64,000 nt of DNA, taken from contig JCKJ01000001.1 of the NCBI GenBank assembly GCA_000525025.1, positions 806,001 to 870,000 on the forward strand, written 5' to 3'. The notes beneath the pieces are model-generated. The model saw nothing but the letters and a program-made list of their open reading frames with translations, was not told the DNA's origin and ran no database searches. Made by a program: the position numbers and the translations under genes. This document shows, piece after piece, positions 6,956 through 26,655 of the stretch; the stretch's first letter is position 1, and the number at the start of each line of letters is the position of its first letter. The stretch is from Methylophilaceae bacterium 11 (GTDB lineage Bacteria > Pseudomonadota > Gammaproteobacteria > Burkholderiales > Methylophilaceae).

Positions 6956-7351
6956 TTACCAATCAGAGAACTTTGTGCCATCTTTTGCGATGCCTGTTGC
7001 ACCGCTGTGGATGTTATATAGCCCACCTTCAAGTGGTGGCGTTGGCGGATCAATGACCCAAGTGTTCTCGCTTTCGGTGATGGGGTCTATCGGCAATCTG
7101 TTCATGTACTGCTTTTCTACAAGCTCTTCTAGGCTGGCTGGGTACTGGCTATGGTCGGCATAGTATTTATCAATACCTTCGCGCACTGTGTTCAAACTTT
7201 GCTTAAGCGCAGCTTCTCTAGCGCGCTCCACACTACTAAAATATTTTGGATAAGCCAAAGTGAGCAGTAATGCGAGGATCGACAATACGACTAATAACTC
7301 GACTAAAGTGAACCCGAGTATACGGCGGCTATTTGGCTTACCATTTGGCAT
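6956..7351 (-). CDS. GspG-like pseudopilin
   Basis: The 131-residue type IV prepilin-like protein has leader MPNGKPNSRRILG, then FTLVELLVVLSILALLLTL with Phe+1 and Glu+5 intact. The body contains YPASLEELVEKQYMNRLPIDP, similar to GspG-type pseudopilins. It should be processed by a prepilin peptidase and assembled in a periplasmic pseudopilus. The ATG at 7351 is preferred because GGAG sits 6 bases upstream; the ATG at 7363 includes that site. The start overlaps the stop of the upstream pseudopilin, indicating translational coupling. Confidence 0.85.
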   Translation of the reverse strand: MPNGKPNSRRILGFTLVELLVVLSILALLLTLAYPKYFSSVERAREAALKQSLNTVREGIDKYYADHSQYPASLEELVEKQYMNRLPIDPITESENTWVIDPPTPPLEGGLYNIHSGATGIAKDGTKFSDW

Positions 7352-7823
7352 AAGTAACTCCATTGGTACCCGTTAGCGGGCTTAACGAGTACACATCATA
7401 TACATCTTTCCCAGCGACTGGTTGGTTGGCACTGCTTTCGTAGCTGCGCAAGCCCCAGCCTTGCGTTTGCTCAATACTGAGTGCATCAGTCTCTCGTTGT
7501 GCAACCATCGGGTCTAGAGGGATTCTACGTAGAAATTTGAGTTTATGTTTGTTGGGGTCTTTCAGGTCTTCAGCCCCTTCTACCAATATTTCTAAATTAG
7601 GTGGGTACCCGGTCTCGTCTATGTTTTTTTTGATACGGCCTTCATCACTTGCTTTCTTATAGGCATCAATGGCTTCGCGAATTTGCCGTAAATGGTGACG
7701 TAACTCGCTTTCTTTAGAACGTTGAACTGTCACCGAGACTAAGGGCATGGCCACACTCGCCAAAACTGCCACAATCGCCAACGTGACAATCAGCTCAATC
7801 AAAGAAAATCCGCGCAGACGCAT
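7338..7823 (-). CDS. GspG-like pseudopilin
   Basis: The 161-residue product has a very short leader MRLRG followed by FSLIELIVTLAIVAVLASVA, with the Glu+5 needed for assembly. The C-terminal part carries the GspG-like sequences GYPPNLEILVEGAEDL, LRRIPLDP and YDVYSLSPLTGTNG. It starts 6 bases after the gspD stop and overlaps the next pseudopilin gene. It is one of three pseudopilins at the end of this operon, besides the canonical gspG at its start. Confidence 0.85.
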   Translation of the reverse strand: MRLRGFSLIELIVTLAIVAVLASVAMPLVSVTVQRSKESELRHHLRQIREAIDAYKKASDEGRIKKNIDETGYPPNLEILVEGAEDLKDPNKHKLKFLRRIPLDPMVAQRETDALSIEQTQGWGLRSYESSANQPVAGKDVYDVYSLSPLTGTNGVTYAKW

Positions 7824-7829
7824 ATGGAA

Positions 7830-9881: not shown

Positions 9882-9900
9882 TGCTGATCCTTTTGCTGGT

Positions 9901-10518
9901 TTACTGCCCCGGCTGCGCCATCTGTCCATTGAAGGACGATTCCGGTGAAATTAATTTTTGTGTTTTTGATAAAGTTTGTGGCAGATTCAGCGGTAAAAAT
10001 GTGAACAGCAATTGGTTGGCATCTTCACCATCCAAGCGCCAAAACGCATCCACTTGTTCACCTTTTGCCACGGTATACACTTTGTTGTTAGCCATCAAAA
10101 AAATTTGCGTGCCTTTGGGGCCATCGTCTAGTTTCCCCATATAAGTAAAAGGCGAGGGTGGCGCTACCGGCGGGGGCGGGGGCGCAGGTTTGATTTTGGG
10201 GGTAGGCGCGACGACGACCCATGAATGTACCGGGAATAAATCGGCAGGCTTTTCTGCGCTTGTGTCTCGATGCATGATGCGCCAGTTGGATGGTGCCGCT
10301 GGTGTCGTTTCGACTTTGTCTACAGGTGTTACTTGAGCAATTGCCAATGATGGCAGTTTAGCGGTACGTGCACTGTCTGCAGGCTCAGCAAGTAATGATT
10401 CATCTGACTGGCCAGACGTGAACGCTGTCCACGCAGTCAGCGCAACAGTCACAATCAGTACGGCCCATAGCCATCCATTTTTACCTGCGTTAGCCGTTGC
10501 TCGTGCTGTTAAATTCAT
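9901..10518 (-). CDS. PilP/GspC-like inner-membrane protein with proline-rich linker
   Basis: The 205-residue protein has one N-terminal membrane segment (about 16-34) and a periplasmic region with a proline-rich stretch (KIKPAPPPPPVAPPSPF, about 108-124). A small beta-rich C-terminal domain begins FTYMGKLDDGPKGTQIFL. This resembles the HR domain of GspC and PilP, which links the inner-membrane platform to the secretin. It overlaps the PilO-like gene by ATGA and lies just before gspD, the position of PilP in pilMNOPQ operons. No PDZ domain is present. The assignment rests on architecture and position. Confidence 0.7.
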   Translation of the reverse strand: MNLTARATANAGKNGWLWAVLIVTVALTAWTAFTSGQSDESLLAEPADSARTAKLPSLAIAQVTPVDKVETTPAAPSNWRIMHRDTSAEKPADLFPVHSWVVVAPTPKIKPAPPPPPVAPPSPFTYMGKLDDGPKGTQIFLMANNKVYTVAKGEQVDAFWRLDGEDANQLLFTFLPLNLPQTLSKTQKLISPESSFNGQMAQPGQ

Positions 10519-11093
10519 GAGGGGTCAGCCTTCACAAATAACACTAACACCAATTTTGCATCAACCACGGGGGTGAGGGTGCTATCTCTATGCATTTGAA
10601 TATCCGCGATGGCCACCGAAGGCACTGCACTCAGCATGGCAGACATAAATTGACGCACTTGAGTGTAATGGCCTGTGACTGGAAGCACCATTTCATATTG
10701 GGTGAGCGCTGCCTGTTGTGGCACATTACGCGGTGTAATTTTGGTGAGTTTATAATCGCCGCTATTCAATACAATGCGTTGTTGCGCTGCTAATTGGTTG
10801 AGTTGCGCAAGTGTGTCTGGGATGGAATCTGCACGAGGAAAAATGCGGTAAAAATCCTGCAAGGTTTGCTGTGTTTGCTCGGCTGGTTTTTCTATGATGG
10901 CTACGTGCGTGTCAGGCTCTGCATGTTGGTTTAAATCAGTAGAAAAGCTATGGATTTCTTCTTTTATCTCTGCTGATTTAGAGGTGTAGTACACACCGCC
11001 GGCGCAAATTGCCAGCAAGGCTAATAGACCCCAGACGCCAAGTTTCCTAGCCGCATGCGACAGTAACCACATCAGATATTGGGTATTCACCAT
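10515..11093 (-). CDS. PilO/GspM-like inner-membrane assembly protein
   Basis: The 192-residue product has a single N-terminal membrane helix (GLLALLAICAGGVYY) and a periplasmic coiled-coil plus a ferredoxin-like region, typical of PilO/GspM. The segment LNQLAAQQRIVLNSGDYKL and the later YEMVLPVTGHYTQVRQFM match the PilO pattern. The ATG at 11093 is used because it lies two bases after the stop of the PilN-like gene; an upstream ATG at 11138 would give a 43-base overlap. It forms the inner-membrane platform with the PilM- and PilN-like proteins. Confidence 0.78.
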   Translation of the reverse strand: MVNTQYLMWLLSHAARKLGVWGLLALLAICAGGVYYTSKSAEIKEEIHSFSTDLNQHAEPDTHVAIIEKPAEQTQQTLQDFYRIFPRADSIPDTLAQLNQLAAQQRIVLNSGDYKLTKITPRNVPQQAALTQYEMVLPVTGHYTQVRQFMSAMLSAVPSVAIADIQMHRDSTLTPVVDAKLVLVLFVKADPS

Positions 11094-11095
11094 AT

Positions 11096-11656
11096 TCAGC
11101 TTTTCCCTTGCGCTACTTTCCCTAGCTCTAGTTTCCATTGTGCAACAATGGTAAATCCAACTGGCTTGTAGGGGTCGCTTTGATCGATATGATGTTTTAG
11201 TAAATAGACCTGCGCTAAGGTGTTTAATTGTGCCAAAGCTTGCACGTACTGCAAGGTTGCGGCCATGTTTTTGGCCTGGCCGGTCAACACGACTTGTTGT
11301 TTTTTGCGATTAGGCGCTATGCTCAATAGTGCGATATCTTGTGTGCTGACTTGCTCCAGCGAAGTCAGTAGCGGATTCCATGGAGTGCTTAACTGCGTGA
11401 CAATATCACGGGCATATAGGACTTCATCTTCCGATGCGGTTTCAATCGGTAGCTCAACTGGCTTATTGCGTAATGCAGGTGACATTCCAGAGGCAGAAAC
11501 CAACGTGGATAATGTCTGCTGTTGTCGTTGATATTGCTGTACCCAATATAGTGTGCAGCCAATCGCTGTCAGTAGCATTGCCAACCCGAGTAAGCTGATC
11601 TTTTTGAAAGAAAATGCACTGGTTTCCACAAAGTCAATGTGTAATCGCTGGCTCAT
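11096..11656 (-). CDS. PilN/GspL-C-like inner-membrane assembly protein
   Basis: The 186-residue protein has a short cytoplasmic N-terminus (MSQRLHIDFVE), one membrane helix (about 20-38), a coiled coil rich in Gln and a periplasmic domain. In PilN the cytoplasmic N-terminus binds PilM. The start overlaps the PilM-like stop by ATGA. Sequence similarity is weak, as usual for this family, so the call depends on topology and gene order. Confidence 0.75.
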   Translation of the reverse strand: MSQRLHIDFVETSAFSFKKISLLGLAMLLTAIGCTLYWVQQYQRQQQTLSTLVSASGMSPALRNKPVELPIETASEDEVLYARDIVTQLSTPWNPLLTSLEQVSTQDIALLSIAPNRKKQQVVLTGQAKNMAATLQYVQALAQLNTLAQVYLLKHHIDQSDPYKPVGFTIVAQWKLELGKVAQGKS

Positions 11657-12465
11657 GCCATTACCTCCAACAGTGGATACGCCGTTTGTGGTAGCGCTTG
11701 TTTATTGGAGAGACCTAAGCGTTTGATTTGCCAGTGCGTAATGGGCGCCAATGCGCTGGCCTTGTGTGCAGGTGCATAAATGGAGATCACGCGCGCTACA
11801 TCGTCTTCTAACACCATGGTGCGCGCTAGAATCTCTGGCAGTTGCTGCTGCCAGTCTAATGCAATGGCTTGCGAGCGGATTTGGGTACAGATGCCATGAT
11901 GAAAAGTTGCAAACACCAAACGGCTATGCTCCACCATTGCCACTATGCCCTCTATCTTGTGCAAGGCGTTGGCTAGACCATTGATGGCTCTTACAAAGTA
12001 GGGCTGCACGCTTTTTAAAACAATGGATTGCTTTTCGGCTAAGGTGTGTAATTCAATCAGTAATGTTTGATCAATGGCCGCGCACATGGTGGGCTTAGCA
12101 GGTGCAACATCATCACATTGTATGGCCCAGTTCAGCACTTCGGCCCCAAACACTTCGCGGAAAGCCGCTTGCGCATACGCGGTTTTTTCTGTGATGGAGA
12201 TATGTTTTAAGGTAGGCGGCAACACTAAATAGCGCACCAAATCACTTTCAAGCGTCAACTGCATTGCAGTGTGGCGGGGTGCAGCAAGCTCTACCAATAT
12301 ACGTGCTAAGGTCTGCAATGATGCTTGCCAAATATGCTCTGGATTCGGGGTTACGGCATGTTCGTGCTGGGCTAGTACTTTCTTTGTCAGCCCGGTACGA
12401 TGCAGCACCGCCACATGAGTGGCGCTGAGTGTGACCAACAGTTGATTAGGCCACAAAGGTAACAC
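11653..12465 (-). CDS. PilM/GspL-like cytoplasmic actin-fold protein
   Basis: The 270-residue protein has no membrane segment and looks like a shortened PilM or the cytoplasmic half of GspL. It probably docks the GspE ATPase to the membrane platform. Start is a GTG at 12465, supported by AGGAG 7 bases upstream, and it overlaps the end of gspE by 20 bases. PilM is usually longer (about 350) with clear ATP-binding motifs; I do not see them here, so nucleotide binding may be lost. Confidence 0.72.
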   Translation of the reverse strand: MLPLWPNQLLVTLSATHVAVLHRTGLTKKVLAQHEHAVTPNPEHIWQASLQTLARILVELAAPRHTAMQLTLESDLVRYLVLPPTLKHISITEKTAYAQAAFREVFGAEVLNWAIQCDDVAPAKPTMCAAIDQTLLIELHTLAEKQSIVLKSVQPYFVRAINGLANALHKIEGIVAMVEHSRLVFATFHHGICTQIRSQAIALDWQQQLPEILARTMVLEDDVARVISIYAPAHKASALAPITHWQIKRLGLSNKQALPQTAYPLLEVMA

Positions 12466-14152
12466 GGTTAATCTCCTGTAAGGTTGTCATGCCTTCACCC
12501 ACCGCTTCAATCGCGGCCTCACGTATGGTGCGCATGCCGCTACGTTTTGCGGCTTCTTTCAGTTTGCGAATAGGCTCGCGCGCGACAATCATTTCTCTTA
12601 ACTCGTCGTTGAGGACTAACAGTTCAGCGACTGCTTTACGACCTTTATAGCCGGTACCCCGGCAATGACCACAACCTTTGGCATGTTTGAATTGCATATG
12701 ACTCGCCATTTCAACGGTAATGGCCGATTCTTCTAATATTGCGGCCGAAGGCTGCTCTGGTTCCATACAGTGTGGACAAATCACACGAATCAGGCGCTGC
12801 GCCATGATGCCATTGACAGCTGAAACAAAGTTGTAAGGGTCAACGCCCATGTGCATAAACCGTGCGATCACATCCAGCACATTGTTGGCGTGCACGGTAG
12901 TAAATACCAAGTGGCCAGTCAGTGCTGCCTGTACCGCAATCTGTGCAGTTTCTGAATCGCGAATCTCACCCACCATGATTTTGTCAGGGTCGTGTCGCAA
13001 AATAGAGCGTAGGCCGCGTGCAAAAGTCAGGCCTTTTTTCTCATTGACTGGGATTTGCAATACGCCGGGTAGCTGATATTCCACTGGATCTTCGATAGTG
13101 ATGATTTTGTCATGCCCAGTGTTAACCTCAGAGATGGCTGCATATAACGAGGTGGTTTTGCCACTACCGGTGGGGCCTGTCACCAATACCATGCCATAAG
13201 GCTCTGCGGCTAAACGACGAAATTGTGTGATGATATTGGGGTTAAACCCAAGCGCTTGTAAGCTTAAACCTTGCGCTTCTTCAGACAGCGATTTACGATC
13301 GAGCACGCGTAATACGGCATCTTCACCAAACACACTGGGCATAATGGATACACGGAAATCCACTTCTCGGCCTTGTGTGATGACTTTAAATCGGCCATCT
13401 TGAGGAATACGGCGCTCCGCAATATCCAACTGCGCCATGACTTTGATTCTAGAGATGGCTTGGTCGGCATTGTCTTGCCCTTGAATGCCCCCCACGCTTG
13501 CCATGACACCGTCGATACGGTACTTCACTACTAGACCTGAATGTGCGCATTCCAAATGAATATCGCTGGCGCCTGTTTTTAAAGCATCGTACAGCGTGGA
13601 GTTCATCAGTTTGACAATCGGGTTGCTCTCTTCACTAATTGACTTTAATGAAAGATGTACCACCGACTCATCATTATCCGCCAGTAGGTTTTGCTCGCCC
13701 GTCGGTAAGCCATCCATGGCGCGCATGGTTTCTTCATGTCTAGCTAAAAATGCGGCAATATCAGTGCGATGCGCGAGCCGCCACGTGTATGACCGTTTAA
13801 TGTATTCATTGGCCCATGTTTGCAAGTTGTCATTAAACGGATCGGCAAACACTAAAATAAGCTGTTCGTCTTCGGTATAAAAGGCCAGACATTCTTTTTG
13901 TTGGGCTTTGGAAAATGGAATCGTGTCAAAGCCTGCAATTAGCGTGTGCATTTCTTTCATGGAGATGGGCGCATAATGAAAGCATGCACCAAGGGCAGAA
14001 ATGAAAGTGTCTTGCGTGCCGCCAATCAGCTCTTCCAGCACTTCAATCATGCGTCTTTGCTGAAGTTGCGCTTGTGCCTTCGCTTGCTTGATGGTGGCCG
14101 GGGTCATCATCACAGTGGCGCCGTCTAATGCAAAAGTAGGGGTCGCGATCAT
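12446..14152 (-). CDS. gspE: GspE/PilB-family secretion ATPase
   Basis: The 568-residue product should be the hexameric cytoplasmic motor that drives pseudopilus assembly. It has an N-terminal MshEN/T2SSE-N-type region (about 45-140) and a RecA-like ATPase domain. The Walker A motif GPTGSGKTTS is at 326-335, with an Asp box ITIEDPVEYQ, Walker B KIMVGEIRDSETA and a His box LVFTTVHANN. A zinc-binding four-cysteine site (C459, C462, C494, C497) is present, as in GspE and PilB. The start overlaps the gspF stop by ATGA. Confidence 0.95.
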   Translation of the reverse strand: MIATPTFALDGATVMMTPATIKQAKAQAQLQQRRMIEVLEELIGGTQDTFISALGACFHYAPISMKEMHTLIAGFDTIPFSKAQQKECLAFYTEDEQLILVFADPFNDNLQTWANEYIKRSYTWRLAHRTDIAAFLARHEETMRAMDGLPTGEQNLLADNDESVVHLSLKSISEESNPIVKLMNSTLYDALKTGASDIHLECAHSGLVVKYRIDGVMASVGGIQGQDNADQAISRIKVMAQLDIAERRIPQDGRFKVITQGREVDFRVSIMPSVFGEDAVLRVLDRKSLSEEAQGLSLQALGFNPNIITQFRRLAAEPYGMVLVTGPTGSGKTTSLYAAISEVNTGHDKIITIEDPVEYQLPGVLQIPVNEKKGLTFARGLRSILRHDPDKIMVGEIRDSETAQIAVQAALTGHLVFTTVHANNVLDVIARFMHMGVDPYNFVSAVNGIMAQRLIRVICPHCMEPEQPSAAILEESAITVEMASHMQFKHAKGCGHCRGTGYKGRKAVAELLVLNDELREMIVAREPIRKLKEAAKRSGMRTIREAAIEAVGEGMTTLQEINRVTFVA

Positions 14153-15324
14153 TGTATATTGCCTGCAAGCTCAAAGATGGGCATGTAAAGTAACAAGACT
14201 ACCACACCTATTACCAAGCCAATCATCAACATTAATATGGGCTCAAACAAGCGCGTAAACCAGTCTATCCAGCGCGCGAGTTCTTCATCATAAAAGCCAG
14301 CAATGCGCTCCATCATATCGCCGATATTACCGCCGCGTTCACCCACTGCCAGCATGCGCAAGGCTACTGGTGTGGTCAGTCCGGTTTTGTCGAGCGCATC
14401 GGAAATCGGGTGGCCTTCGTTAATGGCTGCTGAAGCAAGCTTCATACTGTTTTGTAAGGCAGAATCTAACAAGCCGGACACCGATTGCAGTGCAAGTAGA
14501 ATAGGCGTGCCGCCTTTGAGCAGCATGCCAAGCGTTCTGTAAAAACGTGCCAATTGGTAGATGCGCAGACGGTCACCCAATGCCGGGATTTTCCACAGTT
14601 GTTGCGCTAGCCATTTTCTGAATGCCGGTTGAGATAGGGCAACAATTAAAGCGGCAATGAGCCCGATGCTGCCTAGCATCATGGCAAAGCCATGGCGTTC
14701 AAGAAACACGCCCCATGCCAGTAATACTTGCGATAGAAAGGGGAGATCGCCGCCAGTGCCTTCATAAATGCGACTGAATTTTGGAACGACAAAGCCGAGC
14801 AAAAACAGAATCACCAAACCGCCAACGCTCATCAACAGTATCGGATAGATGGATGCACTGACGATTTTCTTTTTGAGCAGGCCAATTTGTAATTCATAGG
14901 CAATGTAGCGACTCAACGCTTGGGGCAGGTCGCCGGTTTTTTCACTGGCCCTGACCGTTGCAACAAACAACATAGGAAACGCTTGCGGCTGCTGCTCCAG
15001 TGCGGCGGAAAAGGTTTGTCCTTGGTAGAGCGCTTGTAACAGCGTATCTAAGGTGGATTTACCTTCGTTACGGTCGTCTTTGACTGCAAGCGTTTCAATC
15101 GCCTCTACCAAATTGAGGCCTGCTTCTAGCAAGGCCAGCAATTCTTGGCTAAATAAAATGAGCGGGAATTTTTTTCTGGAATGCTTGAGTGCATTGAGCG
15201 CTGTGGCCGAGATAGGCGTATAGCCTCTTGCCTGCGCCTGAGAGAGTGCATCATCCATATGCATGGCAGAAATGTTCAGGAGAACCATTTCTCTGTCACG
15301 GACCGCTTTTACTTGATAGTTCAT
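14149..15324 (-). CDS. gspF: GspF/PilC-family inner-membrane platform protein
   Basis: The 391-residue product has two GspF repeats, each a helical bundle followed by membrane segments. The three membrane helices fall around ILLMSVGGLVILFLLGFVV, the following ALIVAL stretch and MLMIGLVIGVVVLLLYMPIF at the C-terminus. The motif LLEAGLNLVEAIETLA and its second copy LLKGGTPILLALQSV are family hallmarks. I placed the start at ATG 15324 because the family begins at the motif MNYQVKAVRD; extension to 15390 would overlap gspG by 50 bases. It anchors the GspE motor. Confidence 0.93.
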   Translation of the reverse strand: MNYQVKAVRDREMVLLNISAMHMDDALSQAQARGYTPISATALNALKHSRKKFPLILFSQELLALLEAGLNLVEAIETLAVKDDRNEGKSTLDTLLQALYQGQTFSAALEQQPQAFPMLFVATVRASEKTGDLPQALSRYIAYELQIGLLKKKIVSASIYPILLMSVGGLVILFLLGFVVPKFSRIYEGTGGDLPFLSQVLLAWGVFLERHGFAMMLGSIGLIAALIVALSQPAFRKWLAQQLWKIPALGDRLRIYQLARFYRTLGMLLKGGTPILLALQSVSGLLDSALQNSMKLASAAINEGHPISDALDKTGLTTPVALRMLAVGERGGNIGDMMERIAGFYDEELARWIDWFTRLFEPILMLMIGLVIGVVVLLLYMPIFELAGNIQ

Positions 15325-15340
15325 CGCGTTTTGAACAGCG

Positions 15341-15778
15341 TTACCAGTTCGTGACGTCTTCGGCTTCTTTGGTGCCGCCTTGCTGCCCATCTTTACCTAG
15401 CGAGTATAGGTCGTAGTCGCCATGCTCTCCTGGTGATTTGTAGAGATAGGGTTTATCCCACGGGTCATTCGGCACGTTTTTTTTAAGATATGGGCCAGCC
15501 CATTTGGTATCGTTAGCCGGATTTTTATTGAGTGCCTCTAACCCTTGCTCGCTGCTTGGGTAGCGTCCGGTATCAATCCGGTATTGGTCTAACGCTTTAC
15601 CCAGTGCATCGATTTGTGCTTTGGCAGTTTTTGTTTCGGATTTACCAATTTGCTCAAAATATTTGGGGCCTACATAGCCAGCAAGTAGGCCAATAATGAC
15701 CATAACAACTAGCAATTCAAGGAGTGTAAATCCTTGAATTTTAATATTTAATTTTAATTTTTGTGTTCTAGTGATCAT
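15341..15778 (-). CDS. gspG: major pseudopilin GspG
   Basis: The 145-residue product is a canonical GspG. The leader ends IQG, then FTLLELLVVMVIIGLLAGYV with Glu+5. The globular part has the diagnostic sequences RYPSSEQGLEAL, WAGPYLKK, VPNDPWDKPYLY and the calcium-binding C-terminal loop DLYSLGKDGQQGG. It is the first gene of the eleven-gene operon. An upstream gap of 197 bases separates it from the giant oxidase gene and may carry the operon promoter. Confidence 0.96.
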   Translation of the reverse strand: MITRTQKLKLNIKIQGFTLLELLVVMVIIGLLAGYVGPKYFEQIGKSETKTAKAQIDALGKALDQYRIDTGRYPSSEQGLEALNKNPANDTKWAGPYLKKNVPNDPWDKPYLYKSPGEHGDYDLYSLGKDGQQGGTKEAEDVTNW

Positions 15779-15975: not shown

Positions 15976-18900
15976 TTAAGGGCTGATATACAACTGCAGC
16001 TTAGGTACCGCACTATACGTACTTGCACCCGGTGCTTTCCATAATAGCTGCATTACTGCACCCCCGGTAAACTCTAGAAACTCCACCGTAATTGGCAAGC
16101 GTTGACCAGCTGTCATGCTGATTACCGCGCTGGTGTCCAAGGTTGGCCCATGTGAAGCCCAGTTATTGATGATGAGCTGGTTATTGAGATAGACCCTTAC
16201 GCCGTCATCAGAATTGGTCTGGAACTGATAGTTGCCAGCAGCTAATGCTTCGACATACCCCGTCCAACGTGCAGTAAAGTTGTTTGCTGGAACGCCAGCA
16301 CCCGGCGAAGCAGTGCCCCAGTTAAAGTTCACATCCTCCACACGTTGTAAAACCGCATTGCCGGATAAGTCTATCGAGTTGTAGTAACTACCATTCAAAC
16401 CAGTGCCGGTCGAGGTCGTACCATTGGAGGTCACAGTAACGGAGGCGACACTACTGATGCTGACCGCACCGCTATTGTCAGTGGCTCTTGCCGTCACAGA
16501 ATGGGTACCGACCGCCGCATTGGTCCAACTGATGCTGTATGGCGAAGTCGTATCTGTAGCGATTAGCGTAGCCCCATCATAGAACGCCACTTGGGTGATC
16601 GTACCATCACTATCCGCAGCATTGGCGGATACCGTGATGGCCGTGCCTTGTATGATGTTAGCTCCTGAAGCGGGTGCTGTGAGCGCAACAGTAGGCGCAT
16701 TATTGTTGACCGTACTACTGTTATACAACTGCACTTTAGGCACCACGTCATAAGTAGTGGCTCCTGGTACTTTCCAGAATAACTCCATCAATGCTCCACC
16801 GGTGAACTCTTGGAATTCCACCGTAATCGGAATACGTTGGCCAGCCGTCATGCTGATCGCCGCGCTCGTGTCCAAAGTAGGGCCATGTGGTGTCCAGTTA
16901 TTAATCACTAACTGATTATTGATATAGACTCTAAGGCCATCATCTGAATAACTCTGGAATTGATAAGAGCCCGTCACCGTGGCTTCAATAAACCCAGTCC
17001 AGCGTACTGAGAAGTTATCTGCTGGTAAGCCTGCTCCCGGTGATGCATTACCCCAATCAAAGTTAATATCCTCTACACGCTGTAGCACAATGCTGCCGGT
17101 TAAATCATTCGTTGCGTAGTAATCGGCATTCAATCCGGTACCTGTGCCCGGTGTGGTTGGCGTGCTGGAAGTCACCGTAATCGCCACCGCAGCACTGGTA
17201 GTGACCGTACCCCCATTATCAGTCGCTCTAGCGGTGATGGAATGAGACCCAACCGCCGCATTGGTCCAACTGATGCTGTATGGCGAAGTCGTATCGGTAG
17301 CAATCAAAGTCGCACCATCATAGAACGCGACTTGGGTGATCGTACCATCGCTATCCGCAGCATTGGCTGAGACCGTAATGGCCGTACCTTGTACTACACT
17401 CGCCCCTGCAGATGGTGCAGTCAGTGAGACAGTAGGCGCTACATTGCCACCTGTACTGCTCGTATACAGCTGCACTTTCGGTACAACATTATATGTAGCG
17501 GTTCCCGGTACTTTCCAGAACAGTTCCATCAGTGCACCACCTGTGAATTCTTGGAATTCCACCGTAATTGGAATGCGCTGACCTGCCGTCATATTCAGTG
17601 TGGCACTTGTGTCTAAAGTGGGGCCATGCGGTGTCCAGTTATTGATGATTAACTGATTATTTACATACACCCGCAGGCCATCATCCGAATACGTCTGAAA
17701 TTGATAAGAGCCAGTCACCGTGGCTTCAATAAACCCAGTCCAACGTACTGAGAAATTATCCACAGGAACACCTGCACCTGGCGAGCCATTGCCCCAATCA
17801 AAGTTAATATCCTCTACACGTTGTAGTTTCACAGTGCCCGTTAAATCACTGGTGGAGTAGTAAGCCGCATTCAATCCGGTACCGGTGCCTGGCGTTGTAG
17901 GCGTACTAGAAGTCACCGTGATGGTCACCGCCGTACTGGCAGTAACTGCACCACTATTGTCAGTGGCTCTCGCAGTAATCGAATGTGAGCCGACGGCAGC
18001 ATTGGTCCAGCTAATGCTGTAAGGCGCAGTAGTGTCGGTAGCAATCAGTGTTGCGTCATCATAGAACGCAACTTGGGTGACCGTACCATCACTATCCGTG
18101 GCATTGGCCGAGACCGTAATGGCTGCGCCTTGCCCCACACTCATTCCGGCTGTAGGTGCAGTCAGTGTGACAGTTGGCGGTGATTGAGTCGCCGTACCAA
18201 TGGTACTGTATAACTGTGCTTTAGGTACTACACTGAACGTGGATGCACCAGGTAATTTCCAGTTAAGTCCTAACAAGGCACCGCCAGTTAGCTCCTGATA
18301 CTCAATGATGATAGGCAGTCTTTGCCCTGCATTCATGTTGAAAGCAGCGCTGGCATCTAAAGTAGGAGGGTGGCCAGACCAGTTATCAATAATTAACTGA
18401 TTGTTGAGATACACCCTTACGCCATCATCCGAGTTGGTTTGTAATTGATAAGACCCTGTGACGGTGGCTTCGATATAGCCGGTCCAACGTGCAGAGAAGT
18501 TATCTGCTGGGAGTGTTGCGGCTGGCGAACCATTGCCCCAATTAAAATTAACATCCTCTATGCGTTGCAATACAACATTGCCCGAGAGGTCATTCGAGTA
18601 ATAGTAAGCACCGTTTAAGCCTGTGCCAGTCGAAGGTTTAGGGGCTTCGCCAGCTTCTTCCATACCAATTTGCTGTACATAGCTCACTACATTGGTCATG
18701 TCTGTAGCCGATAGTGTAATGCCGTTGTGCGCAGTAATCGCAGCGTTCATTGTTGCCGCGCTGCCATCATGCAGGTAAGGTGCCGTTGCCCAAACATCGC
18801 GTAATGTCGGGATATCGATACCACTCAAAGTAGCATTTAGGCGATTACCGCTGGAGGGTTTAATGGTACCGATATTTCTCAGCCCATTAGCACCATTGCT

Positions 18901-21900
18901 GATCGTAAAATCAAACGAGCCATGACAACTAATACAATTGTTTTGGAATACCGCTTTACCAGCAGTTGCAGCCGGTGTTAAGCCACCAGCGTTATCACGA
19001 TAAGGCGTGCTATCAAACTTATTCAGCGATTCGACATAAGCGGCCAATTCATCCAACGAAGTACTGATGCCAGATTTTCTATCGCCTAGCGGCTGATTTC
19101 GGGTGCCCGTCGCATAGTCAGCATCAGCCATCAAGCCCGAGCCGCCAGACAGTTCGCGAATTTGCCGTTCAAAATCTTGCACTTCATCGAAGTTTGCGCT
19201 CCAGTGCAGGAAGCCGTGTGCCTTGCCCGCGCGGCCATTTAAGGCAATGGTATTGCGTAAACCTTCACCAAAGCCAGTCAGATCCCACACACGGCCATCC
19301 TGACCGCCATCGTTATGACAGCTTGCACAGCTCATATAGTTATCACGCGCTAGCCGTGTATCACGTGCGTCATAAAATAACTGTTTGCCAAGCACTATGC
19401 TTGGGTCTAGGTTTTCAGTTTCAATGGTGTAGGTAATTGCGCTGCGAGAAACCGTAAGTTTGCCTTGATTCAATAGTGGTGATAAATCAAACACAGTCAC
19501 ACTTCTATCCATAAACTCTTGCACATAAAGCGTATTGCCGTCTTCTGATAGTGCGAGACCTTGTGGAGCGCGACCTACCTCAAGTCTGAACAGTTCTCGA
19601 CCGCCAATGGCATCAATCACTGCAACTTGGCGGCTGGTCTCCAACGCAATAAATGCATACACACCACTTGGATGATAAACCGCAGCAGAGCCTACGCTTG
19701 AGTTGTCATGATCAATACGTTTTGCATAGTTTTCAGTGAGTGTGGCCATGTTGATGCTTGAGCTAATCGCACGTACCGTGTTTTGGAAGTCTAATTGCTG
19801 GCCGCTACGCAGCAGTCCGCGCTTGATGTTGTCTTGCTTAGAGGGCAGCCATGCTTGCGTGCCATCCGGAGAAATAGCAGGTGCTGCTAGATAGTTGGGC
19901 AGACCTCTGCCTTGAATCTCCGTATCAGTCTTGTCGCTATGCGCCAGTTTAACGGTGCTGGTCACAACCATAGTGTTGGCATTGACGACAATCACTTCGC
20001 CCCCTGCATTCGTGGTGTCGATAGTCGCAGTTGCTTCACCCAGTGCAGGTGGTGAGATAAAACGAGACACCAACACTAATGAGGCATCTGCATTAATGGC
20101 CACATGGCGCACACTAGGTGCAACATCAACAATGCCTTGTTGTGCACCGGTGGTGGCGTTCAGTTTAAGCAACTGCCCAGTAGCTTCCAACGCCACAAAC
20201 GCGCTGGTACCGTTGGAGTCAAATGTCAGGCCATGTGGTAGTGATGCACGTGGCAACATCAATGTTTGCACCACTGCCAAAGTGGTGGGGCTAATCACAG
20301 AAATACTAGCGCTTCTCTTATTGGTAACCCAAATCCGCCCATCCGGTGCCACTGCAACGGTGCGTGGCGATGTACCGACATCAATCGAGGTGACAAGCGC
20401 ATTGGATACGCCATCCAGCACGCTGACAGAGTCGTTATCCGGGTTCACCACCCAAATTCTGGACGGATTTCCGCTACGATTCTCTACCGTTATCGGGCTG
20501 GAGTTTGTTGGGTTTTTTGCCGTTTTGACTGTGGCTACGGCTTGCAAGAACGTACGTCTTGAAATAGCGCCTACCGTATCTTTGGCGCTCAGTGTCACAA
20601 CATACACGCCGGGCTGCGCGTAACTATGGCTCACAGCAGGATTAGCGTTGTAAGGAGTGTCTGGACTGCCATCACCAAAGTTCCAGCTATAAGTAGTACT
20701 AGAAACAGCAGTCACGCTGTAGTTTGCAGTGCCGCCGGCGCCAATCACAGGCGCGTCGATTGTCCCGCCAATTTCGGGAGGGTCGTACGGTGTGGTAGGC
20801 ACATTAGGGGGGGCTACATTTTGCCCAATGGCAATGATGACGCCTAAAGAAGGCACGCCGTTTGCATTGACCGTAACCACTTGGTAATAGCCAGGAGGGG
20901 TGAGGTTAGCGTTAGGTATGGTGGCGGTGAGGCGGTTGCTTTGCTGTGAAAAGGTTAAGGGTATGCGGCGCTGCCCGGTATTGAAAGCATGCGTACCTTT
21001 ACTCACACCAAGTAACACCAATTGTGTGATGTTTTCCGTTGTGGTCATGTCCATCTGTATCGGTGCTTCGTGATCGTAGGACAATCCACTAATCGCCTGA
21101 ATAACTGGGCGAGGCGCCAGTTGTGCACCACTCATGCCGGTTCTGAATAAATAAGGTGGGTAATACACCTCAGCATTTAAATTATTGATAGGACCAGGAG
21201 CGCCACCACCAAAGGACAGGATAGTGCCATTAGGCATCAGCACAGTATTGGAATGATAGCCTCTATAAATGGCAGCGTTAGCACCCTGTGACCATGTGCC
21301 TGTGGTGGGATCCCAGATTTCAACACCATACACAGCACTGCTACCATCGTTATTAGCGCGTGCGGAACCACCGGTGATGACCACTTTGCCATTGGATAAA
21401 ACGATTGAATTTAGAAAGCGGCGCACATAGGTCATGGCGGGCTGTTCTGTTAATACCGGGTTTGCGCCATTGATGTCAATGACGGTTGCTTTGTTACTGG
21501 CCGGTAAATCATCTCCTACAAAGCTGCCATTGCCGCCTGCAATCAAGATCTTGCCCGGTGCATACATCACTGCAGTATTGGTGGCACCCACGTTCACTGG
21601 GTTAGCAAAGGTATAGGGCACTTTGAAATTGCCAGCAATGCGTATGGTGCCATTGCCGTTAGGGTCTAGGTACCACATTTTTTCGGAAGACACGCCAAAG
21701 ATCTGGCCATTCGGTGCGATGAATGCACGTGGAAATGACGCGCGTAAATAGTCAGGGCCAAACGCCTCGCGACTGTAAGCACCAAACAAAGAACGCCAGC
21801 CAGTCGTTTCCAGTATTTCCGGCGTCATGGAGGCTAGACCTTGTGCAACGGCTTGATCTGGACTGTTCTCCATATCTTCTGAGTAAGGCACCATGCCGCC

Positions 21901-22584
21901 AAGGATGATAGGGCGGCCATCTGGCAAATTCAGCAAGGTAGCGTACCAGCGGTCTAGTGCCAGATTGTATGAAGCCGTTTGTACGGTATTGGTAGAAGGG
22001 GTGTAAATCGTGGTTGTTCTACCGCCATTACCACCAGAAATAATCAGCCTACCATCGGTCAGGTAAGTAGAGTTTGAACAGAAGCTATCTTGCTGTTGTG
22101 CACGAAAGGTCGTTTGGTGGCTATTGTTGCCAAACCCCACTGTGGGGTCCCACAGGTCAAAATAACGGCCATCCTGGCCAGCACCATCAAGCGAAGTGCC
22201 ATAGGTCAGCACTTTTCCATCAGGCAGCACAGCCGCATGGATACTATTGAGTGGCCACGATTTTACACTGGACCACATGCCACGCGTGGGCGCATCGGCA
22301 GGAATGGCAAGCCCTTGCATAATGGGGTCAGGGCTAATCGGAACCGTTACCCATGCGCTTGGATCGACATCCGCCGCCTGCGTGTTGTGCATCATCGGAA
22401 TGTCCAGCGTCAGCAGCGATAACATCATCGCTGCGACGATGGCTTTGCGACCTTGTGTGAGATATGGATATTGCTTGAACACGAAACGATTGTGCGGTCG
22501 GCTTAATGATTGAGACGGTATGGTTTCGTGCATAAGAGACTCACAATCTTTTCGATAATATATTCTATGGCAATGCTTTGTCAT
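15976..22584 (-). CDS. giant exported copper-radical oxidase / di-heme cytochrome c / PA14 fusion protein
   Basis: The 2202-residue protein starts with a long signal region (hydrophobic at 48-60, ending TQAA at 71). A galactose/glyoxal-oxidase-like Kelch propeller with a DUF1929-type C-terminal domain fills about 85-600. The expected copper-radical residues are all present: C169 (SFCSNS), Y214 (DRWYATL), Y443-H444 (RGYHSN) and H532 (GTHAFNTGQRR). Then come a PKD domain (about 610-695, WNFGDG), a YVTN propeller (about 705-1040) and a cytochrome c peroxidase-like domain with two CXXCH sites (1086-1090, 1217-1221). The rest is four PA14 domains (about 1318, 1565, 1815, 2058 onward) alternating with three Ig-like domains. 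It follows a SCO1-like gene by 28 bases. It should oxidise an alcohol or aldehyde outside the cell; the substrate is unknown. An alternative ATG is at 22533. Confidence 0.9.
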   Translation of the reverse strand: MTKHCHRIYYRKDCESLMHETIPSQSLSRPHNRFVFKQYPYLTQGRKAIVAAMMLSLLTLDIPMMHNTQAADVDPSAWVTVPISPDPIMQGLAIPADAPTRGMWSSVKSWPLNSIHAAVLPDGKVLTYGTSLDGAGQDGRYFDLWDPTVGFGNNSHQTTFRAQQQDSFCSNSTYLTDGRLIISGGNGGRTTTIYTPSTNTVQTASYNLALDRWYATLLNLPDGRPIILGGMVPYSEDMENSPDQAVAQGLASMTPEILETTGWRSLFGAYSREAFGPDYLRASFPRAFIAPNGQIFGVSSEKMWYLDPNGNGTIRIAGNFKVPYTFANPVNVGATNTAVMYAPGKILIAGGNGSFVGDDLPASNKATVIDINGANPVLTEQPAMTYVRRFLNSIVLSNGKVVITGGSARANNDGSSAVYGVEIWDPTTGTWSQGANAAIYRGYHSNTVLMPNGTILSFGGGAPGPINNLNAEVYYPPYLFRTGMSGAQLAPRPVIQAISGLSYDHEAPIQMDMTTTENITQLVLLGVSKGTHAFNTGQRRIPLTFSQQSNRLTATIPNANLTPPGYYQVVTVNANGVPSLGVIIAIGQNVAPPNVPTTPYDPPEIGGTIDAPVIGAGGTANYSVTAVSSTTYSWNFGDGSPDTPYNANPAVSHSYAQPGVYVVTLSAKDTVGAISRRTFLQAVATVKTAKNPTNSSPITVENRSGNPSRIWVVNPDNDSVSVLDGVSNALVTSIDVGTSPRTVAVAPDGRIWVTNKRSASISVISPTTLAVVQTLMLPRASLPHGLTFDSNGTSAFVALEATGQLLKLNATTGAQQGIVDVAPSVRHVAINADASLVLVSRFISPPALGEATATIDTTNAGGEVIVVNANTMVVTSTVKLAHSDKTDTEIQGRGLPNYLAAPAISPDGTQAWLPSKQDNIKRGLLRSGQQLDFQNTVRAISSSINMATLTENYAKRIDHDNSSVGSAAVYHPSGVYAFIALETSRQVAVIDAIGGRELFRLEVGRAPQGLALSEDGNTLYVQEFMDRSVTVFDLSPLLNQGKLTVSRSAITYTIETENLDPSIVLGKQLFYDARDTRLARDNYMSCASCHNDGGQDGRVWDLTGFGEGLRNTIALNGRAGKAHGFLHWSANFDEVQDFERQIRELSGGSGLMADADYATGTRNQPLGDRKSGISTSLDELAAYVESLNKFDSTPYRDNAGGLTPAATAGKAVFQNNCISCHGSFDFTISNGANGLRNIGTIKPSSGNRLNATLSGIDIPTLRDVWATAPYLHDGSAATMNAAITAHNGITLSATDMTNVVSYVQQIGMEEAGEAPKPSTGTGLNGAYYYSNDLSGNVVLQRIEDVNFNWGNGSPAATLPADNFSARWTGYIEATVTGSYQLQTNSDDGVRVYLNNQLIIDNWSGHPPTLDASAAFNMNAGQRLPIIIEYQELTGGALLGLNWKLPGASTFSVVPKAQLYSTIGTATQSPPTVTLTAPTAGMSVGQGAAITVSANATDSDGTVTQVAFYDDATLIATDTTAPYSISWTNAAVGSHSITARATDNSGAVTASTAVTITVTSSTPTTPGTGTGLNAAYYSTSDLTGTVKLQRVEDINFDWGNGSPGAGVPVDNFSVRWTGFIEATVTGSYQFQTYSDDGLRVYVNNQLIINNWTPHGPTLDTSATLNMTAGQRIPITVEFQEFTGGALMELFWKVPGTATYNVVPKVQLYTSSTGGNVAPTVSLTAPSAGASVVQGTAITVSANAADSDGTITQVAFYDGATLIATDTTSPYSISWTNAAVGSHSITARATDNGGTVTTSAAVAITVTSSTPTTPGTGTGLNADYYATNDLTGSIVLQRVEDINFDWGNASPGAGLPADNFSVRWTGFIEATVTGSYQFQSYSDDGLRVYINNQLVINNWTPHGPTLDTSAAISMTAGQRIPITVEFQEFTGGALMELFWKVPGATTYDVVPKVQLYNSSTVNNNAPTVALTAPASGANIIQGTAITVSANAADSDGTITQVAFYDGATLIATDTTSPYSISWTNAAVGTHSVTARATDNSGAVSISSVASVTVTSNGTTSTGTGLNGSYYNSIDLSGNAVLQRVEDVNFNWGTASPGAGVPANNFTARWTGYVEALAAGNYQFQTNSDDGVRVYLNNQLIINNWASHGPTLDTSAVISMTAGQRLPITVEFLEFTGGAVMQLLWKAPGASTYSAVPKLQLYISP
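15985..18640 (-). repeat. tandem 735-744 bp repeats encoding PA14 plus Ig-like units
   Basis: The same GTGLN-starting PA14 unit recurs with periods of 744, 741 and 735 bases (marker positions 18624, 17880, 17139, 16404), all multiples of three. Ig-like units between them share near-identical DNA, for example around 16480-16650 and 17220-17390. This shows recent internal duplication or gene conversion inside the giant oxidase gene. Confidence 0.85.
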
Positions 22585-22612: not shown

Positions 22613-23257
22613 TTACATGCTGTTCAGTTGAGCAATATCTTGCGCAATTCGCGCTTTGTCGATAGGGCTGCCCATGTAGCGCATCATCAGCCGCCCTTGC
22701 GCATCCACCAGCCATAAGTGCGTGGTGTGATCGTCCGGACGTACAGCTTGCTTCAATTTTTTTGGGTCGGTGCCGAATAGCTTTAAACGCTCGGTCACGG
22801 TCACAATATCTGCTGGATTGCCTGTGATAAATACCCAGTTGTCTGCCTCTGCATGCATGCGGTGTGTAAATGCTTTGAGCTTGGTTGGGGTATCGTTCAA
22901 TGGGTCTAACGAGACAGACACAAATACAACACGCGACTTGAGATTGCTAGGCAAACTTTCCAGTATCTCGCTCAAGGCTTTGGTTTGTACCGGGCATACC
23001 GCCGAGCATTGCGTATAGATGAAATTGAATAAGGTGATCTTGTGATTTAAGCTAGAGATTTTAAACGGTTGGTTGTGCTGATCTTTAAAGGCTACATTGC
23101 CAAAATTGCTATAAAAACTGGTGCTTGCAACTTCTGCACGTAGTTGAGCAGAGTAGATAAAAAAGGCAAGAGAGACACAGAGCAGTGCGCAAAGCTTGTG
23201 GGGGAGACTAAACGCCCTCACAACGTTAAATGTGCGCGCTGATATGTGTGTATTCAT
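22613..23257 (-). CDS. SCO1/SenC-family copper chaperone
   Basis: The 214-residue protein has an N-terminal membrane/signal segment (about 22-40) and a thioredoxin-like SCO domain. The copper-binding site is complete: C84 and C88 in TQCSAVCP, and H177 in PDDHTTH. SCO proteins deliver copper to cytochrome oxidase CuA or act as thiol-disulfide partners. Here the next gene, 28 bases downstream on the same strand, encodes a copper-radical oxidase, so copper loading of that enzyme is the simplest role. No cytochrome oxidase genes are near. Confidence 0.9.
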   Translation of the reverse strand: MNTHISARTFNVVRAFSLPHKLCALLCVSLAFFIYSAQLRAEVASTSFYSNFGNVAFKDQHNQPFKISSLNHKITLFNFIYTQCSAVCPVQTKALSEILESLPSNLKSRVVFVSVSLDPLNDTPTKLKAFTHRMHAEADNWVFITGNPADIVTVTERLKLFGTDPKKLKQAVRPDDHTTHLWLVDAQGRLMMRYMGSPIDKARIAQDIAQLNSM

Positions 23258-23615: not shown

Positions 23616-24158
23616 TTAACCACGTTGGAGTCGTGTTAAATCATCAATGATTTCTTGCGAGTGTGTAGAGGCTTCCACATTGAAATAAGCTTTGGCAATA
23701 TTGGCCGCCGGATCAATCAAAAAAGTGTAGCGTTTGGCGATGTTGAGTGGGCCAATATGTGTGAGTGCGCCATACGATTCAGCCACTTTACCTGATGTAT
23801 CGGCCAGCAGAGGGAAGGGTAGGTTGTACTTTTTAGCAAAGGCCGCGTGTGATGCGCTGTCATCCACGCTGATGCCGACCACTTTTGCCCCCAGTTTTTC
23901 TAAGTGATACATATCATCACGAAAATGACAGGCTTCTTTGGTGCAGCCGGGGGTATCGTCTTTAGGGTAAAAATAGAGTACTAACCATTGCCCCTTAAAT
24001 GCATTCAGATCCACCAGCGTGCCTTTGGCGTCTGCAAGTGCAAAATAAGGTGCGGCTTGCCCCACGCTTAACTGATGGTTGGGTGCGCTGAAATAACGGT
24101 ATCCCCAAAAGGCCAGCACTAAGATTACGCTATAAAAAACAATTTTGATCAGCATCAT
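23616..24158 (-). CDS. membrane-anchored PrxQ/Bcp-type peroxiredoxin
   Basis: The 180-residue protein has an N-terminal membrane anchor (residues 5-23) followed by a thioredoxin-fold peroxiredoxin domain. The motif DDTPGCTKEACHFRD supplies the peroxidatic C72 and a resolving C77 five residues later, the PrxQ/Bcp arrangement. It should reduce H2O2 and organic peroxides in the periplasm or at the membrane, using thioredoxin-like donors. The anchor is unusual for Bcp, which is normally cytosolic. It lies one gene beyond the SCO/oxidase unit that would generate H2O2, though it is separated by a terminator. Confidence 0.92.
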   Translation of the reverse strand: MMLIKIVFYSVILVLAFWGYRYFSAPNHQLSVGQAAPYFALADAKGTLVDLNAFKGQWLVLYFYPKDDTPGCTKEACHFRDDMYHLEKLGAKVVGISVDDSASHAAFAKKYNLPFPLLADTSGKVAESYGALTHIGPLNIAKRYTFLIDPAANIAKAYFNVEASTHSQEIIDDLTRLQRG

Positions 24159-25756: not shown

Positions 25757-26335
25757 TTAAGCTTGTGTGTTTCTGCGTTTTGCCATAAACCCTATTAGCC
25801 CCATGCCACATAACAGCATTGCATAAGTCTCTGGCTCTGGCACAGGCTGTGCAATATTTAATACCCCTGCATATGAGCCACCGGCTGAACCTGAGACAAT
25901 ACCTTTGATTTGAAGCGTATAGGTGCCAGCACTCAACGTTAATGGATTTAGCACAACGGTTGTTGAGGAAACGGTTGGACTATAGTTTACCGTTGTTCCC
26001 CAAGCTGAAATCAATTCGTTAGGTGCAATCGCTGCAGTTTGGTGTGTGCTGCCCTTGTATAATCTTGCACGAAGATCGCTTACGCCCAATATGCTGTCTA
26101 GATTGATGGATGAAGTGACCGAATTGACCGAGCCATCAGTAATGGTAAATATATAATCATCCCAAAATGTTGTGCCCGAATCTGAGCTGGTGAATGTATT
26201 GCTATACGTTAATGATGCAGGCAATGCGCCAACTGCAAGAACGGTAGTGGTGTCAGCAAAAGCGCTGACACTAGAAATACTAAATGCGGCGGCTAACGAG
26301 ATTGTCGTTAACATCTTACGAGTTGCTAATTTCAT
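25757..26335 (-). CDS. FxDxF-type PEP-CTERM sorted exported protein
   Basis: The 192-residue protein has a signal peptide (to about residue 28, SAFA), a beta-rich body and a C-terminal PEP-CTERM signal. That signal is VPEP, the hydrophobic helix TYAMLLCGMGLIGFM and basic KRRN. A TFWDDYIFTI segment matches the FxDxF subfamily signature. PEP-CTERM proteins are processed by an exosortase and tend to occur with exopolysaccharide loci such as the one starting at 29005; no exosortase is in this window. The ATG at 26335 is chosen because TTAGGAG lies upstream; a start at 26359 has no support. Confidence 0.88.
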   Translation of the reverse strand: MKLATRKMLTTISLAAAFSISSVSAFADTTTVLAVGALPASLTYSNTFTSSDSGTTFWDDYIFTITDGSVNSVTSSINLDSILGVSDLRARLYKGSTHQTAAIAPNELISAWGTTVNYSPTVSSTTVVLNPLTLSAGTYTLQIKGIVSGSAGGSYAGVLNIAQPVPEPETYAMLLCGMGLIGFMAKRRNTQA

Positions 26336-26655
26336 ACCGACTCCTAAACAAATGTTCATTGGAAAATATTTACAATGAATATTAGTTAAAGCGCATTGCC
26401 AGAGCAGTTGATAATATAGTTATGTTGGACTATCAAAAGTTGTCAATTTATGAAATAAAATCGTTTAAGTACTAGATGTATAAGTGTTTTGTGGGTTTAA
26501 TGCTATCAAGTGAATTCTGGATCTTTATTTATAAAAATATACGTATAAAACCCCAGCCGTAATTTTATATATCGTTGCCTGTATTTATCTGCATGATATT
26601 GTGAGATAGAGCCATCGGTGATATCAATATCGGCTCAATCAATCGTAAAGGATAT
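26336..26655. other. divergent AT-rich intergenic region with an inverted repeat
   Basis: These 320 bases separate the divergent PEP-CTERM and YkgJ genes. An inverted repeat TTCATTG (26355-26361) / CAATGAA (26373-26379) with an 11-base spacer lies about 20-45 bases upstream of the PEP-CTERM start and could be an operator or leader hairpin. The rest is AT-rich with no credible gene. Promoters for both genes are expected here. Confidence 0.45.

Follow-up and report, generated by a model that had tools for sequence, protein, structure and literature searches.

The fusion gene and its domains

We analysed a stretch of 64,000 nucleotides from Methylophilaceae bacterium 11 (positions 806001–870000 of contig JCKJ01000001.1, in a genome of 2.79 Mb), hereafter called the window. 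On its minus strand, to which all coordinates of the gene refer, a single unbroken open reading frame (ORF; 15976–22584, 2202 amino acids) encodes in this order a signal region, a copper-radical oxidase domain of family AA5, a PKD domain, a YVTN propeller, a di-haem domain and a tail of four PA14 and three Ig modules. The first-pass annotation, made from the sequence alone, had described one exported polypeptide joining an AA5 oxidase to a peroxidase-like di-haem domain. Searches with Pfam and NCBIfam found all of the domains that it had named (AA5 as Glyoxal_oxid_N and GO-like_E_set, PKD, YVTN, CCP_MauG and PA14), and the product is indeed one uninterrupted exported chain in which the AA5 site and both haem motifs are intact. 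In amino acid (aa) numbering, the Pfam matches were Glyoxal_oxid_N at 161–237, Kelch at 391–441, GO-like_E_set at 492–586, PKD at 626–681, CCP_MauG at 1063–1120 and Cytochrom_C at 1207–1305, followed by four PA14 and three Big_7 matches; the YVTN repeat came from NCBIfam.

The signal region (22369–22584, aa 1–72) was judged by eye: a hydrophobic stretch runs from about aa 48 to 64, cleavage perhaps occurs after TQA, and the start codon may lie further inside than the annotated first residue. The AA5 domain (20827–22296, aa 97–586) comprises a Kelch propeller and a C-terminal early-set domain, according to Pfam and to a Foldseek match of the modelled core to the alcohol oxidase 5c92 (TMt 0.85); the same search returned the galactose oxidase 9g43 (E 8.9e-39) and GlxA. 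An alignment to galactose oxidases of solved structure places the copper and cofactor residues on FC, GY, YH and TH stretches. These are Cys169, a partner in the Cys-Tyr cross-link (22078–22080), Tyr214, the cross-linked radical tyrosine (21943–21945), the copper ligands Tyr443-His444 (21253–21258) and the copper ligand His532 (20989–20991). The own Cys, Tyr, Tyr-His and His of the bacterial galactose oxidase 9g8h/9g43 match the same residues. This set is exactly the one proposed from sequence, and it is invariant in 75 of 75 AA5 rows, the window included.

The PKD domain (20542–20709, aa 626–681) leads to the YVTN beta-propeller (19444–20487, about aa 700–1047, with estimated ends), which is supported by NCBIfam, the AlphaFold model and Foldseek. 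The di-haem domain (18649–19419, aa 1056–1312) was delimited by Pfam and profile matches. Its two CXXCH motifs, CASCH for haem I (19315–19329, aa 1086–1090) and CISCH for haem II (18922–18936, aa 1217–1221), lie where they had first been placed. At least two CXXCH motifs were found in none of 2000 shuffles of the protein. The fusion contains only seven cysteines (5, 14, 169, 1086, 1089, 1217 and 1220), and past the signal region only five, one in AA5 and four at the haems, each of them needed by a cofactor. The PA14 and Big_7 modules (15988–18624, aa 1321–2199, Pfam), whose PA14 stretches share 68–87 % identity among themselves, may serve in glycan or surface binding.

Conservation, subtypes and neighbouring genes

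Relatives were taken as the best 80 of 413 loci from one genome_contigs scan with the fusion as query. The scan used the pattern NFDEVQD from the di-haem domain together with one AA5 pattern, and conservation within both was left unused. AA5 and the YVTN/di-haem unit share one ORF in 73 of these 80 loci, a count that gives no fusion frequency because the query was the fusion itself; it includes L074, where a stop interrupts the di-haem part. Among the remaining seven, six frames leave the contig before AA5, and in L089 the two halves occupy separate, overlapping ORFs. Some genomes contribute more than one of the 80 loci, and L024, L025, L026 and L028, which duplicate the contigs of L036, L037, L038 and L072, were counted once. 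Alignment A3 contained the shorter fusions (37 of the 70 complete ones), A4 77 of 83 rows and A5 35 of 79.

Over the core, four relatives align at 80, 75, 69 and 47 % identity, and a fusion produced by chance or by assembly is rejected on this ground and on that of the single ORF in 73 loci. In a search of 61 genomes, the window's own included, the genus members G000 (own), G001, G006 and G019 match the whole core, and G052, from another family, matches both parts within one long frame. G019 also carries a second fusion (L027), less closely related and partly made up of N, whose linker looks by eye like an Ig and a LamG-type stretch rather than PKD. By record title, most of the best 80 loci are from Burkholderiales or other Pseudomonadota and eight are from Verrucomicrobiota; single metagenome-assembled genomes are labelled Planctomycetota and Polyangiaceae, labels that may be wrong for such assemblies. 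The linker between AA5 and the YVTN/di-haem unit is 100–670 aa long, with a median of 279 (n = 73).

The AA5 rows form two clusters of 36 rows each, type A, which includes the window, and type B, on an average-linkage tree cut at distance 0.66 (nine of the 80 loci are untyped). At the position that we take to be that of the stacking Trp, which is Val232 in the window, type B has Trp in 25/36 rows and type A has Val, Gly or Asp in 29/36. A Pro follows at 233 in 25 of the 75 AA5 rows, 49 of which are without that stretch. A tree was built for the YVTN/di-haem unit from 79 of its 84 module rows and seven rows without AA5 (a quick search with SH-aLRT support only and some long branches). Along it the AA5 subtype switches six times, five of the changes being forced, for each label, by well-supported branches. 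It seems, then, that the di-haem half stayed conserved while the oxidase half was swapped, the replacement still being an intact AA5. Exchange between paralogues would be a simple route, since type A and type B fusions occur together in several genomes, such as those of Undibacterium crateris (L043 and L110) and Rhizobacter Root1221 (L039 and L094). The combination of two AA5 subtypes with one kind of di-haem unit indicates that the module is not bound to one of them. The correlation between AA5 and YVTN/di-haem distances (r 0.51) was left unused, as it would be expected for any two halves inherited in a single gene.

The unit was also counted outside the fusion. Among 300 genomes of the order, it is present in eight, AA5 in twelve and both in five, the window's own included (Fisher p 2e-6, or 5e-4 after dropping the two fusion genomes); the two counts are separate 300-genome draws taken as the same set since their handles agree. 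In L029, L125, L126 and L127, PKD, YVTN and di-haem domains are joined to LVIVD (by Pfam in L125 and L127), with no SCO gene in the locus. The YVTN/di-haem unit is a mobile redox module, found often but not only with AA5.

A gene for an SCO1/SenC copper chaperone with a CSAVCP motif (22613–23257, minus strand) ends 28 nt upstream of the fusion. In 51 of the best 80 loci (50 with a single-sequence search), namely 24/35 of type A, 22/36 of type B and 5/9 untyped, an SCO gene is found no more than 1.5 kb away. None stands beside seven YVTN/di-haem loci without AA5 or beside five lone AA5 loci, controls that are few, come from the window's order, include three lone AA5 loci of one genome and lack the upstream side of L035. 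For fusions with no SCO gene nearby, the neighbours in nine loci were listed and six proteins from five of these loci were scanned; none of the six was copper-related.

A gene for a small protein with one CXXCH motif and a conserved MPRY-like stretch adjoins 23 of the 80 fusions: 22/36 of type B, one untyped and 0/35 of type A. Examples are found at 15316–15867 in L058, 14926–15570 in L072 and 11012–11524 in L157, all beside type B fusions. The profile was seeded by ten type B sequences; a search for any small CXXCH frame also gave type B loci only (ten). On the plasmid of a Comamonadaceae strain, the same three genes stand in order under the labels 'discoidin domain-containing protein', 'hypothetical protein' and 'SCO family protein'. 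The first of these labels, from one annotated public record, recognises neither activity of the fusion. The one such protein that was scanned matched no Pfam family, and we read the small proteins as cytochromes.

Further upstream in the window lies a PrxQ-like peroxiredoxin gene with an N-terminal hydrophobic stretch (23616–24158, minus strand), in the same order in L036–L038. As a general partner it was rejected, for among the 80 loci it occurs in the cassette only there, with two more distant matches. Directly downstream of the fusion and on the same strand are genes of type II secretion type (GspG, GspF, GspE, PilO-like and secretin; 7338–15778), and GspG-F-E also follow the second copy in L027. 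A general link to secretion was likewise rejected: among the 80 loci there is one GspE match, 4 kb from the fusion in L080, and the contigs of L036–L038 end at the fusion, so that the place of secretion genes is not visible there. In the minus-strand stretches 25757–26359 and about 29005–57704, a PEP-CTERM protein gene and a Polysacc_synt_2 gene precede a long run of same-strand genes, which over about 30–54 kb has a GC content of 0.36–0.43, below that of its flanks, and is perhaps an exopolysaccharide cluster.

Affinities of the di-haem unit

With 77 relatives, the AlphaFold model of the YVTN/di-haem unit reached a mean pLDDT (predicted local distance difference test) of 92.4 and a pTM (predicted template modelling score) of 0.93. 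The core (aa 101–1300) was modelled with a shallower alignment of 37 relatives, at 84.5 and pTM 0.67 with di-haem stretches below 60; the placement of AA5 relative to the rest is therefore uncertain. In Foldseek, the YVTN/di-haem unit matched first a YVTN-PKD surface protein, second the beta subunit of hydrazine synthase (5c2v_B, TMt 0.77) and then many propellers. Against solved chains, the di-haem profile came about equally close to hydrazine synthase gamma (4.2e-21) and to the best cytochrome c peroxidase (1.9e-20), followed at lower scores by MbnH (5.7e-13) and MauG (best 9.2e-10). The NCBIfam models hydrazine_gamma, MbnH and MauG each match 36/36 members and the peroxidase model 32/36; for the window the scores are 63.7 bits for MbnH, 56.4 for hydrazine_gamma, 48.2 for MauG and 42.1 for the peroxidase model, all far under the cut-offs. 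Separate di-haem proteins are also encoded near fusion genes in L115 (7917–9809) and L082 (17367–18899), the latter being a strong CCP_MauG match.

Hydrazine synthase itself was rejected as a function, because the scores are far under cut-off and the fusion has no third haem Cys. Distant fused beta-gamma homologues have already been reported as highly prevalent in environmental bacteria, in PMC12758564, whose main text has no occurrence of the word galactose. The two halves might nonetheless be chemically unrelated: the di-haem unit could act on a second group of the same polymer, or carry out chemistry of the nitric oxide type as hydrazine synthase does, so that the fusion would only co-locate two activities. 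The first-ranked solved chain, the second-best fold match of the propeller and the joining of the unit to LVIVD would all suit such a role. We nevertheless consider it improbable, as AA5 has been retained as the partner through several subtype exchanges and co-occurs with the unit, and the third haem-bound Cys of hydrazine synthase gamma is without counterpart in the fusion.

In bacterial di-haem peroxidases, a Trp lies between the haems, a Gln is on the distal side, the catalytic Glu belongs to a P-x-EM stretch and a Met binds the second haem. We aligned the di-haem profile with three canonical di-haem proteins from related genomes. W1128 falls on the Trp of the WDGRA stretch and Q1141 on the Gln that follows, and an 11-residue gap lies opposite P-x-EM. 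His1286 aligns with the Met that 3o5c and 1iqc have close to their second haem. The Cys and His of both haem motifs are complete in all 82–83 rows that cover them, and conservation is nearly as strict at H1127, W1128 and E1139 (81/82), H1272 (81/81) and H1286 (77/81). The term peroxidase-like therefore holds in part: the domain belongs to the peroxidase/MauG superfamily, but a canonical peroxidase is rejected because the profile alignment shows no counterpart of the catalytic-Glu segment and the Met at haem II is replaced by His. The original observation is better founded than the sequence alone could show, but the label peroxidase is unearned; judged by these alignments, that of a di-haem redox partner is supported.

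These differences bear on a self-protective role, one of two ideas offered in the first-pass annotation, in which the di-haem domain would act as a cytochrome c peroxidase and use electrons of the respiratory chain to remove the H2O2 that AA5 releases. Membership of the superfamily, with peroxidase chains among the best matches, and the conserved Trp1128 and Gln1141 agree with this idea, and the mono-haem protein beside 22/36 type B fusions could donate the electrons. The missing Glu segment and the His at haem II speak against it. In addition, the module also occurs without AA5, and the window and three close relatives encode in the cassette a peroxiredoxin that would possibly make such a function redundant. 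We regard self-protection as unlikely.

The His column at haem II has a different bearing. In hydrazine synthase gamma, a second, bis-His haem is thought to pass electrons from cytochrome c to the catalytic haem (PMC12607021, excerpts), and we take this haem as the best guide for the second haem of the fusion. In the other idea of the first-pass annotation, the haems might form an electron wire that leads substrate electrons from the copper site to cytochrome c, which would turn the oxidase into a dehydrogenase able to dispense with O2. Cytochrome-linked dehydrogenases are a known principle, and the mono-haem gene next to type B fusions would supply an acceptor. The wire appears rather improbable to us: type A, the type of the window, lacks that gene nearby (0/35), and no fixed tunnelling path is visible with a linker of such varying length and an uncertain domain orientation. 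A diffusible intermediate or a transient contact fits this range of linkers better than a fixed wire does.

Proposed role and comparison with known systems

We tentatively favour a reading in which the fusion is an exported AA5-type oxidase that carries its own redox partner, the di-haem domain serving the copper site by activation or maturation with the H2O2 that the oxidase makes. SCO1 would load copper into the AA5 site. The PA14 tail would hold the AA5 domain on a glycan, whose alcohol or aldehyde group would be oxidised with reduction of O2 to H2O2. The YVTN/di-haem unit, on its linker of variable length, would then react with this H2O2 and take an electron from the copper site, either forming the Cys-Tyr cofactor or bringing the site back from an inactive Cu(II)/non-radical state into its active radical state. 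A c-type cytochrome, for which the small mono-haem protein of the type B operons is a candidate, would exchange the surplus electrons with the unit. One chain would thereby do what a separate peroxidase does for Streptomyces GlxA or for fungal alcohol oxidases.

Precedents exist in both systems. In PMC4736821 (excerpts), sco and dtpA mutants of Streptomyces are described as lacking the mature cross-linked form of GlxA at low copper, which added copper restores, and the authors note that some Burkholderia have Gox genes together with sco genes. For Colletotrichum, PMC9770985 (excerpts) describes an AA5 alcohol oxidase that a peroxidase encoded in tandem activates, in the absence of substrate, by one-electron oxidation.

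Several observations support activation or maturation in cis. Both halves are kept in one ORF in most of the best loci (73/80), with the AA5 residues invariant in every AA5 row (75/75) and the haem Cys and His in every row covering them. An SCO gene is linked to 51/80 fusions vs 0/7 and 0/5 controls. The module is not tied to one AA5 subtype, and it co-occurs with AA5 in five of 300 genomes (Fisher p 2e-6). The profile matches to MbnH and MauG, models of partner-protein oxidisers that cover 36/36 members, point the same way. Since one kind of di-haem unit serves two AA5 subtypes, its task fits the copper site or the product rather than one substrate. With modest confidence, we prefer activation or maturation in cis over scavenging and over a wire.

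Other observations weigh against it. The segment of the catalytic Glu is missing, so that H2O2 may not be a substrate. Because the linker varies and the core reached a pTM of 0.67 vs 0.93 for the YVTN/di-haem unit, no fixed copper–haem contact is seen. Oxidase activity, haem content and copper content are predicted. No SCO gene lies beside 29/80 fusions, including all eight Verrucomicrobia loci (in nine of the 29 the sequence stops less than 1.5 kb away), and the loci compared for SCO are small in number, with one genome supplying three of the five lone AA5 loci. Two of the five genomes with both the unit and AA5 carry fusions, one of them the window's own, and the remaining three belong to one genus, so that phylogeny alone may explain the p value. 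Finally, the unit occurs without AA5, alone or fused to LVIVD repeats, in seven loci.

A narrower form would be a self-activating oxidase, in which a hydrazine-synthase/MauG-like domain in cis makes and renews the Cys-Tyr radical, fed by H2O2 and linked to a cytochrome. In this strict form the proposal is doubtful, although conceivable; if it is true, we know of no earlier c-haem system with the task of maturing or gating a copper-radical cofactor. It is not settled how cells produce copper-radical oxidases and keep them active; separate peroxidases have been implicated in Streptomyces and in fungi. A conserved natural fusion holds both partners at a fixed 1:1 ratio, so that the question is testable inside one molecule, and it may represent an oxidase without need of added horseradish peroxidase.

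As the first-pass annotation had supposed, no enzyme with this domain order, nor any fusion of this kind, was found described among the open-access papers listed (titles and openings of abstracts). In a survey of GlxA-like proteins (PMC3543389), the word cytochrome has no occurrence in the main text. Known families are thus joined here in a conserved manner not found described.

Compared with canonical di-haem peroxidases, the fusion shares the superfamily, the two CXXCH motifs in a CCP_MauG/cytochrome c fold and the aligned Trp and Gln of the distal side, but it is without the catalytic-Glu segment and has His in place of Met at haem II. Hydrazine synthase beta-gamma resembles it in having a YVTN propeller and then a di-haem domain in one chain, and in giving the best profile match and the second-best fold match; the fusion, however, carries AA5 and scores 60.2 bits vs an NCBIfam cut-off of 1250. 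Furthermore, a third haem-bound Cys is reported in hydrazine synthase gamma, whereas the fusion has none, all five of its cysteines being accounted for.

MauG and MbnH are di-haem enzymes that oxidise a partner protein. They belong to the same superfamily and both models match all 36 members, but the window scores 48.2 vs 443.85 bits for MauG and 63.7 vs 362.85 for MbnH at cut-off. Among solved chains they are weaker matches than hydrazine synthase gamma or the peroxidases, and the axial-ligand column of the fusion is His, a further difference from them.

On the oxidase side, the fusion shares with galactose oxidase, glyoxal oxidase and GlxA (9g43, 5c92 and 4unm) the fold and the five copper and cofactor residues, and its SCO link is like that of GlxA. 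In contrast, no AA5 entry matched in the PDB has a described haem domain, and the fusion has Val232 at the presumed position of the stacking Trp. The closest parallels in organisation are GlxA-Sco-DtpA of Streptomyces and Perox-AlcOx of Colletotrichum, which likewise pair an AA5 oxidase with a haem peroxidase, Streptomyces together with Sco. In these two systems the partners are separate proteins and the peroxidases are of the DyP and class II types, whereas the fusion is one chain with a di-haem c-type domain. Such a partnership between oxidase and haem was otherwise found described between separate proteins only.

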